DNA of 5,432 nucleotides from positions 1 to 5,432 of the forward strand of contig JAEXUU010000684.1 of the NCBI GenBank assembly GCA_023452965.1, given 5' to 3'. Shown here in pieces: positions 1,404 to 2,954 of this stretch. The position numbers and the translations under genes were made by a program. The stretch's first letter is position 1. Every line of letters starts with the position of its first letter. The notes beneath the pieces are model-generated. The model made no database searches, was not told the DNA's origin, and saw nothing but the letters and a program-made list of their open reading frames with translations. Source of the DNA: Pseudomonadota bacterium. GTDB lineage: Bacteria > Pseudomonadota > Alphaproteobacteria > Rhizobiales > Beijerinckiaceae.

Positions 1404-1405
1404 AA

Positions 1406-1427
1406 TAAATCTATCTATGTAGATTTA
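1406..1427. promoter_or_regulatory. Operator-like inverted repeat 1, next to the hydrolase start
   Basis: Perfect 8-bp arms TAAATCTA (1406-1413) and TAGATTTA (1420-1427) flank a 6-bp spacer TCTATG. The 22-bp site ends 2 bp from the hydrolase ATG at 1403 and is AT-rich in a GC-rich setting, so it should overlap the -10 region of a minus-strand promoter. It matches the second repeat at 1463-1484 at 15 of 22 aligned positions. Binding by the adjacent PadR protein is inferred. Confidence 0.7.
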
Positions 1428-1462
1428 GAGTCAATGTTGCGAACCCAGCTATGGTCCGATTT

Positions 1463-1484
1463 CAATTCGACCTATATAGAATTG
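1463..1484. promoter_or_regulatory. Operator-like inverted repeat 2, next to the padR start
   Basis: Arms CAATTC (1463-1468) and GAATTG (1479-1484) flank a 10-bp centre containing most of the perfect palindrome CTATATAG (1472-1479). Like repeat 1 it is 22 bp long, and the two share AA.TC.A.CTAT.TAGA.TT across their length. It ends 4 bp before the padR ATG. TATATA/TATAGA inside it (1473-1480) could be the -10 element of a promoter giving a leaderless or nearly leaderless padR transcript, since no Shine-Dalgarno sequence is visible. The likely role is autorepression. Confidence 0.68.
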
Positions 1485-1488
1485 GTCG

Positions 1489-1791
1489 ATGACCCGCTCC
1501 CGATCCTTGTCGCCTGCCGCCCGGGCCGTCCTGTTTCTGCTCGCCGAAGCAGGCGCCGGCTGGTCCCATGGCTATGACCTTTGCCGCAGAGCCAATGTGA
1601 AATCCGGCACCCTCTATCCCCTGCTGATCCGCCTTGAGGAACAGGGACACCTGGAAGCGCAATGGATGCCGGCGGAGCCCGGACGTCCGCCCAGACATGC
1701 CTACAGGCTCACTGCCCAAGGACGCCGCCTTGCGATTGAGAATCCTCCGCGCACGTCCCCCTCGTCGACGCCGGTTGAACGCCCGGCATGA
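1489..1791 (+). CDS. PadR-family transcriptional regulator
   Basis: This encodes a 100-residue winged-helix DNA-binding protein. Family features visible are LSPAARAVLFLLAE (7-20, helix 1), the SHGYDL turn (26-31), the recognition-helix region VKSGTLYPLLIRLEEQGHLE (37-56) and the wing GRPPRHAYRLTAQGRR (65-80). PadR proteins usually act as dimeric repressors. Here the protein stops soon after the wing with a Pro/Ser-rich tail (ENPPRTSPSSTPVERPA), so the C-terminal dimerisation helix of longer PadR proteins is missing or very short. Start ATG 1489 is chosen because the domain begins right after it; later ATGs fall inside the HTH. There is no Shine-Dalgarno sequence, so translation may be leaderless. 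The stop overlaps the next gene by ATGA, making a two-gene operon. Two matching inverted repeats in the upstream spacer are the likely binding sites. The ligand or signal cannot be read from sequence. Confidence 0.92.
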   Translation: MTRSRSLSPAARAVLFLLAEAGAGWSHGYDLCRRANVKSGTLYPLLIRLEEQGHLEAQWMPAEPGRPPRHAYRLTAQGRRLAIENPPRTSPSSTPVERPA

Positions 1792-2954
1792 CTGCCGCCG
1801 AGTGGATAGTCCGGCGGATGTGTCGCCTGCTTCCCCCACGCCTGACCGACTGGGGCGAGGCGATGGCTCAGGAAGCCGCCTCGATCGAGCGGCCCAGCGC
1901 CGCCTTGATCTTCGCTGTCGGCTGCGTGGCCTGGGTCATCCGTCAAGCTCTGGGACAGGCGCTGCAATCAGCGCGGACTCCTTCAAAGGCGACTTCCGAC
2001 CAACCGTCGCGATCTCGCACGACGGCGCTGGCTTGCGCGATCGCGGCGACGGGGCTGGGCCTCGTGTATCTCGCGGTCGCCGGCGCGCCGATGCGCCACC
2101 TGACCTTGAACGCAACGGCCTTGATCGCAGGCTTGATCCTCGCCCTGCCCTTCCGCCGGCGCGACCCCGTCTCGCCCCCGTTCATCGGCGTGATTTCGAT
2201 AGCGCTAGGCATAGGCCTTCTCCTGACCGCAGCCTTGGGCGATGAAGCCTCAGGAGCAAGACGCTGGATATCCCTGGGCGACGTGGTTCTTCAGCCGAGC
2301 CTTATCGGCCTCCCCTTTCTTCTTGTGGCGTTCGCACGAACTCGAAACATCCTCACCGCTGCAGGCGTCATTCTGGCGGTCGTCGCCCTCGCCTGGCAGC
2401 CCGACGCTGCGATGGTCGGAGCCGCAGTCGCCGCCCTCGGCGCCGCAACCTTGACGAGACGCGACCGGCCATCCCTGATCGTGCTGGCTGTCGCCTCGGC
2501 CTGTTTCCTCGTAGCGCTCGCTCGGCCAAACGCGGTCCCTGCAGCACAGTTTGTGAACGGCGTGTTCCGCACCGCCTCAGCAGCCGGCGGCGTCGCGAGC
2601 CTCGCGGTGTGGATAGGCGCCCTGCTTCTGCTGCTGCCGTCTTTGTCGGGCCTCCGACGAGATCGAGAAGCGGCAGCGGCTCACACCGCCTTCGGCGCGA
2701 CCTGGCTGGCGATCATGGCGGCGGCCCTTTTCGGCGACTACCCCACCCCGGTGGTCGCCTACGGCGGAAGCGCCATTGTCGGATACCTGCTATCGACGCT
2801 CGCTCTTCCGCGAGAGAGCCAAGGAGCCCCACTGCAGGCTCCAGAGGTCGCCGGTCCCGTGTCCAAGGCAAAGTCTGGTCGTCTCTCCGACGCGGGAAAT
2901 CGTCGCCGTATCGCGGGGCATCCGGCTCGCACGCACACTCGGCTCTCTTCCTAG
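1788..2954 (+). CDS. Polytopic membrane protein resembling SEDS (FtsW/RodA) proteins, probably not catalytic
   Basis: This encodes 388 residues, translationally coupled to padR (ATGA at 1788-1791). Residues 1-60 form a separate N-terminal part (LLPPRLTDWGEAMAQEAASI, then a hydrophobic FAVGCVAWVI helix), which I recall from other proteins encoded beside PadR genes. About ten hydrophobic helices follow. Several signatures match SEDS glycosyltransferases in the correct order: GARRWISLG (156-164) with QPS (169-171), like the family's RWI..G....QPSE; a helix ending in QPD (204-206), like the family's QPDxGT; and PTPVVAYGGSAIVGYLL (319-335), like the conserved PLPFVSYGGSS near the C-terminus. The catalytic H.DFIFA motif is not seen: the nearest counterpart, FVNGVF (255-260), has Asn257 where Asp is expected. 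QPSE is QPSL here, and GT after QPD is absent. A role in the envelope is likely but enzymatic polymerase activity is not. The last ~47 residues (342-388) are polar and basic, with weaker codon bias. Confidence 0.85.
   Translation: MTAAEWIVRRMCRLLPPRLTDWGEAMAQEAASIERPSAALIFAVGCVAWVIRQALGQALQSARTPSKATSDQPSRSRTTALACAIAATGLGLVYLAVAGAPMRHLTLNATALIAGLILALPFRRRDPVSPPFIGVISIALGIGLLLTAALGDEASGARRWISLGDVVLQPSLIGLPFLLVAFARTRNILTAAGVILAVVALAWQPDAAMVGAAVAALGAATLTRRDRPSLIVLAVASACFLVALARPNAVPAAQFVNGVFRTASAAGGVASLAVWIGALLLLLPSLSGLRRDREAAAAHTAFGATWLAIMAAALFGDYPTPVVAYGGSAIVGYLLSTLALPRESQGAPLQAPEVAGPVSKAKSGRLSDAGNRRRIAGHPARTHTRLSS

Follow-up and report, generated by a model that had tools for sequence, protein, structure and literature searches.

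What does a protein with the SEDS fold do when it is encoded in an operon with a PadR-family regulator and lies back to back with an esterase? The question is raised by contig JAEXUU010000684.1 of a Beijerinckiaceae assembly (GCA_023452965.1), whose 5,432 nucleotides, taken whole, are called the window here. Its SEDS-like gene starts in the stop of the padR gene (an ATGA overlap), and the esterase gene diverges from the pair across a short control region (Table 1). We read these genes as a self-regulated envelope-response cassette in which PadR is the switch, the SEDS-like protein its membrane partner, and the operon together with the esterase the output, and we put the probability of this reading at roughly one half. 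Its computed support consists of the SEDS kinship of the membrane protein, the loss of a Glu/Lys pair and part of a loop, the pairing of an N-terminal domain with PadR genes, palindrome-like sites, and the linkage to the esterase. The membrane protein is unlikely to be an ordinary cell-wall polymerase; it probably serves as an envelope sensor or as an enzyme acting on a different substrate.

Several comparisons support placing the protein in a divergent SEDS-fold branch. The fold was recovered computationally, and alignments bore out the order of SEDS signatures reported in a first-pass annotation of this DNA (three signatures there; here the Trp of RW, the Gln of QP, QPD and P..YGGS). That annotation had proposed checking both profile and structure: the fold was found, but the PF01098 score of the window protein is 22.7 bits, below the gathering score of 26.4. 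One relative, at locus L059 (genome G113), is marked as exceeding the PF01098 cut-off, scoring 28.6 with its in-frame neighbours. We aligned 123 family members after dropping a non-SEDS row (L089) and excluding the near-copies P0001, P0002 and P0004; L001 and P0075 are identical sequences within this set. R159, W160, D206 and P321 are invariant across the alignment, and P176 is present in 122 of the 123 rows.

Comparison with 26 canonical SEDS proteins from 13 genomes shows what has been lost. The family resembles RodA/FtsW (PF01098) in fold and motif order but lacks the Glu and Lys of QPSE..K, which occupy the aligned columns in 26/26 canonical proteins (the Glu is column 172) and are mainly Leu at both positions in the family. 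According to PMC8078798, extracellular loop 4 (ECL4) is the contact between RodA/FtsW and the penicillin-binding protein (PBP). This loop is reduced in the family, with 49-55 residues between QPD and position 257, just before the eighth transmembrane segment (TM8), compared to 98-105 in canonical SEDS proteins (measured in the 17 of 26 in which the pattern recognised both motifs), a shortening of about 50 residues. The QPD of the family is also not followed by G; the first-pass annotation had recorded both the loss of the QPSE Glu and the lack of GT after QPD. That the whole family lacks both the Glu/Lys pair and some 50 residues ahead of the Asp region speaks against ordinary lipid II polymerisation.

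The same annotation had taken the catalytic Asp to be replaced and had proposed a pseudo-enzyme on that ground. In T. thermophilus RodA, the catalytic Asp is D255, at the end of ECL4. P. aeruginosa FtsW has D275 as its putative catalytic Asp, in a conserved cleft (PMC7614612). The register of this residue in the window protein depends on the method: hhalign placed residue 257 there in three of the five covering alignments, and MAFFT placed residue 254 there in four of four. Residue 257 is indeed Asn in the window copy, but this is not a family trait. The 123 members have Asp (77), Glu (33), Asn (9), Thr (2), Ser (1) or a gap (1) at this position, making it acidic in 110, and Asp is found in three records 95-98% identical to the window protein, which rules out Asp loss as a family-defining feature. 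The Asn looks like a recent change in the window copy, with the family as a whole keeping the acid, and the argument for a pseudo-enzyme from Asp loss is weakened because of both. All 13 non-acidic rows carry the N-terminal domain described below, and all 53 rows without it have Asp or Glu (some database records may start late); on the family tree, the position must have switched at least four times between an acidic and a non-acidic state.

An additional N-terminal domain had also been noted at first pass. It is confirmed here as a domain shared with 20 other proteins, with three helices in the structure model (residues 3-12, 17-32 and 36-63) ahead of the multi-transmembrane part. We surveyed its pairing with PadR in 42 loci (the window, L001 and L063-L102), each reaching up to about 5 kb to either side, using a PadR cut-off of E<=1e-4; the window's own regulator scores 45.6 bits against PF03551, over the cut-off of 27. 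The domain occurs in 21 proteins, of which six are SEDS-like and fifteen have no SEDS part. A PadR frame lies alongside every one of the 21, whereas the 21 SEDS-like genes lacking the domain have none (Fisher 4e-12, a value that is not an independent-sample probability because the family profile guided the choice of loci, these loci also supplied the PadR profile, and they are mutually related). The survey of PadR plus SEDS-like pairs suggested at first pass is contained in this count, with PadR beside all six domain-bearing SEDS-like genes. The domain points to a wider PadR module in this group of bacteria. At the fifteen loci of the other kind (L088-L102), the domain is carried by small proteins with called lengths of 192-296 residues and two to four transmembrane-like segments, and a like site precedes padR.

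A palindrome-like site resembling AACTCTACATATGTAGAGTT or AAATCTACATAGGTAGATTT stands before all 21 PadR genes, with best scores of 14-20 of 20. It lies 25 to 28 bases before the PadR profile match in 20 of them and 37 bases before it in L101, and TTGAC is found ahead of it in 19, the exceptions being the window and L090. At the loci with a divergent esterase (the window, L001 and L064), a copy scoring 17/20 faces the esterase and the PadR-proximal copy scores 15/20. As a control, 4000 pieces of 150 bases were drawn at random from these loci, and 42 of them reached a score of 14, some of these surely containing real sites. The sites and the 21/21 pairing are the signs we found of the PadR control, with the SEDS-like gene in a PadR operon, that the first-pass annotation had claimed. 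A search of five genomes allowing up to two mismatches returned exactly one perfect site per genome, always at the PadR/SEDS-like locus, so the regulon looks local, as judged by a pattern itself drawn from these loci. The non-perfect sites all had two mismatches, and one of them lies at a second PadR locus of genome G120; G001, G079 and G120 have one and the same two-mismatch palindrome, AAATCTATTTAGGTAGAGCG, outside their PadR loci. The short distance from site to ATG suggests leaderless mRNAs in the window; the start of the L001 esterase lies further off.

The esterase appears tied to the PadR-linked form. The window esterase has partners that are 79% (L001), 73% (L064), 68% (L066) and 66% (L106) identical, each adjoining a SEDS-like gene. 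Among 149 genomes of the host's taxonomic family, five have a PadR-linked SEDS-like gene (with at most 13 candidates scored per genome), and three have the esterase at E<=1e-30, each time beside such a gene. Among database records, 13 SEDS-like/esterase pairs agree exactly in the length of the longest contig, compared to 0 to 3 in shifted controls, in a test of 74 SEDS-like records against 120 of 801 esterase records listed; many esterases of the family may stand alone, the esterase family being larger than the SEDS-like family. Hydrolases of other kinds are also found with these proteins. In eight protein records of at least 590 residues, the SEDS-like part is fused to another alpha/beta hydrolase (PF00326, PF07859, PF20434), and L067, a family member without PadR, has a third kind upstream, an adjacent Abhydrolase_1 gene. 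This repeated hydrolase pairing is the best clue to function. The hydrophobic N-terminal segment of the window esterase suggests that it may be anchored.

Some further observations concern these hydrolases. A lipobox-like segment was seen by eye between the two fused parts in P0044 and P0055. On a Sphingomonas hankookensis plasmid (L106:3552-5337), the SEDS-like gene and the esterase gene overlap; an IS3 transposase lies immediately upstream, and the listed features of this locus include no PadR. At L079:4094-5950, the SEDS-like part and a 4HBT thioesterase share a single open frame, through either fusion or run-on of the frame. We rejected a relic of a fused esterase in the window (best tblastn match no better than E 0.55), as well as close kinship of the divergent and fused esterases (BLAST E values of 4.9 at best).

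The nearest described arrangement is the HAAS-PadR dyad, in which a three-helix N-terminal domain is carried by multi-transmembrane proteins and a PadR gene is always present (Ravi et al., 2024, PMC11237479); the partners include FtsW/RodA, and the dyad is also treated in PMC12419801. The window shares the adjacent PadR gene and the three helices before a multi-transmembrane part, but its domain is not HAAS by profile. At E<=10, no Pfam family matched the window domain, and HAAS (PF22564/PF08006) was found in none of the 21 members. HAAS identity by profile was rejected, with a score of 6.3, whereas the top eight among 40 column-shuffled controls reached 9.1-12.8. True HAAS domains are present at other loci of the same genomes (in eight of the eight tested genomes that carry the loci described here) and on two Deinococcus plasmids (one under the cut-off), and all ten true-HAAS loci have a PadR frame alongside and no detectable profile in common with the N-terminal domain. 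A PF08006 search of 200 phylum-level genomes gave no match, but its controls were silent too, so absence is not shown by it.

In Listeria, the padR gene lstR and lmo0421 are part of the sigC operon, and overproduced Lmo0421 was unable to replace FtsW1 or the RodAs (PMC6624303); the Lmo0421 protein carries a HAAS domain according to PMC11237479. Compared by description rather than by sequence, both loci pair a PadR gene with an FtsW/RodA-like membrane protein. The Listeria operon includes SigC, whereas no sigma factor was among the six window proteins scanned; the window domain is non-HAAS by profile, and an esterase shares its control region. The cassette is thus a HAAS-PadR-like arrangement with a different partner domain, in a different lineage and with an added esterase. 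Our searches of open-licence papers turned up no description of this PadR/SEDS-like/esterase cassette.

In the mechanism that we favour, the padR operon and the divergent esterase each have promoter palindromes to which PadR would bind, and its binding would keep the expression of both low, as the conserved sites suggest. The second gene of the operon would supply a membrane protein that joins a SEDS-fold multi-helix part to the three-helix PadR-partner domain. A ligand in or on the SEDS-like pocket (a lipid-linked glycan or carrier lipid, at a guess) would alter the N-terminal domain, which would then hold or release PadR, inducing the operon and the esterase. We infer the PadR binding, the signal and its direction, and the periplasmic location and substrate of the esterase. 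A more specific version, in which a pocket formerly for lipid II reads a lipid-linked glycan, the non-HAAS domain passes the signal to PadR and the esterase is the output, is possible but somewhat doubtful.

Several findings weigh against the cassette reading. Many of the palindromes are good in one half only, the window's PadR-proximal site is degenerate with no TTGAC ahead of it, and the consensus was drawn from the loci on which it was scored. Two-mismatch sites are at background level, since reversing the pattern as a control gave matches as well, in G120 and G127 among the five genomes. No such esterase is present at L063 and L065, which are two of the six loci with a PadR-linked SEDS-like gene, and no segment of the window esterase exceeds the transmembrane threshold. 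The third helix of the window's N-terminal domain scores marginally as transmembrane, so the domain may not lie wholly in the cytoplasm; hhalign found no profile similarity between the domain and HAAS (probability 0.1%), so the signalling role rests on the PadR pairing and the helix count. Finally, rows that lack the N-terminal domain likewise keep the invariant residues and the acid at 257, a pattern that suits an enzyme no less than a sensor.

This conservation without the PadR-partner domain keeps an enzymatic explanation close behind the favoured PadR switch. The protein could be an active SEDS-fold glycosyltransferase using a lipid-linked donor other than lipid II, with PadR merely its switch and the esterase trimming or deacylating its product. 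Such an enzyme would suit the four invariant residues, the prevalence of Asp or Glu at 257, and the recurrence of alpha/beta hydrolases as divergent or downstream PF00756 genes, as fusions and as the Abhydrolase_1 neighbour, but it would have to work without the QPSE Glu and Lys, with the shortened stretch ahead of the Asp region, and with an acid that has repeatedly switched state and is Asn in the window copy itself. We regard it as a real, if minority, possibility. The first-pass annotation had instead proposed a regulator that binds canonical FtsW/RodA or their PBPs and modulates them. The SEDS fold is compatible with this, as is the presence of two canonical SEDS proteins besides the SEDS-like one in all 13 genomes searched; the loop described as contacting the PBP is much shorter, however, and Pfam identified no PBP or canonical SEDS protein among the 20 neighbour proteins searched, making this proposal improbable. 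The conserved partner that did emerge is an esterase. A degenerating gene, in which the window copy has lost the conserved acid and drifts, would account for Asn where the closest relatives have Asp, but the intact frame, the overlap with padR, the retained invariant residues, and the conserved regulatory site and esterase partner make it very improbable.

If the more specific version, with a pocket that reads a lipid-linked glycan, is true, PadR-partner domains have more than one origin, and polymerisation is not the sole role of the SEDS fold. SEDS proteins are known as cell-wall polymerases. A family in which much of the pocket is kept, the Glu/Lys pair and the greater part of the loop facing the PBP are lost, and one branch carries a regulator-partner domain would be an example of reuse of the fold. 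The locus also offers a compact, testable PadR circuit of one repressor, two candidate sites and two outputs, and it is relevant to the FtsW/RodA-like protein that is linked to PadR in Listeria.

Table 1. Features of the window, with the fused relatives in the last row (positions are those of the window unless a locus is named).
Feature	Position	Strand	Remarks
Esterase, divergent partner, 323 aa	432..1403	-	PF00756 E=3.7e-10; GESMGG motif and hydrophobic N-terminal segment by eye
Control region between esterase and padR	1404-1488		85 bases
Better palindrome copy AAATCTATCTATGTAGATTT	1407..1426		17/20 to consensus; 3 bases before esterase ATG, facing esterase
TTGACT (TTGACTC), candidate -35 of esterase promoter	1429..1434	-	Beside palindrome; likewise in L001, L064
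PadR-proximal degenerate palindrome AATTCGACCTATATAGAATT	1464..1483		15/20 to consensus; 5 bases before PadR ATG
PadR-family winged-helix regulator, 100 aa	1489..1791	+	PF03551 E=7.3e-12
SEDS-like integral membrane protein, 388 aa	1788..2954	+	PadR-linked form with N-terminal domain
N-terminal three-helix PadR-partner domain, residues 1-62	1788..1973	+	Profile match common to 20 other proteins
GARRWISLGDVVLQPSL motif, residues 156-172	2253..2303	+	RW invariant; Glu of QPSE is Leu
QPD motif, residues 204-206	2397..2405	+	D206 in 123/123, Q204 in 121/123 rows
Asn257 codon AAC	2556..2558	+	Conserved Asp/Glu position of the family, just before TM8
PTPVVAYGGSAI motif, residues 319-330	2742..2777	+	P321 in 123/123 rows; aligns to SEDS P..YGGS region
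Fused SEDS-like/esterase	L001:5875-8196; P0044, P0055, P0075-P0080		PF00326, PF07859, PF20434

Past the SEDS-like gene, a profile scan of the window proteins identified a thioredoxin-like protein, a flavin mononucleotide (FMN) oxidoreductase and a partial L-PSP-like gene, and we saw no connection between the cassette and these genes of the window. The named relatives of the SEDS-like protein are mostly from Brevundimonas and once from Caulobacter. In class-level surveys, the SEDS-like family and the esterase were each found in one of 289 genomes, namely G001, among the matches listed and with at most six (SEDS-like family) or seven (esterase) candidates scored per genome. Rarity outside the host's taxonomic family is uncertain, because few candidates were scored per genome and the protein database names members from Sphingomonadales. 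Some SEDS-like relatives without the N-terminal domain (L068-L075, L078 and L079) lie near ruvAB and ybgC-tolQRAB-pal, with the RuvB cluster in nine of these loci and the TolQ cluster in nine. The order in L068, the only one of these loci named with Pfam, is ruvA-ruvB-SEDS-like-ybgC-like-tolQ-tolR-(gene)-tolB-pal-like; the position of a SEDS-like gene next to Tol-Pal may be relevant to envelope constriction.
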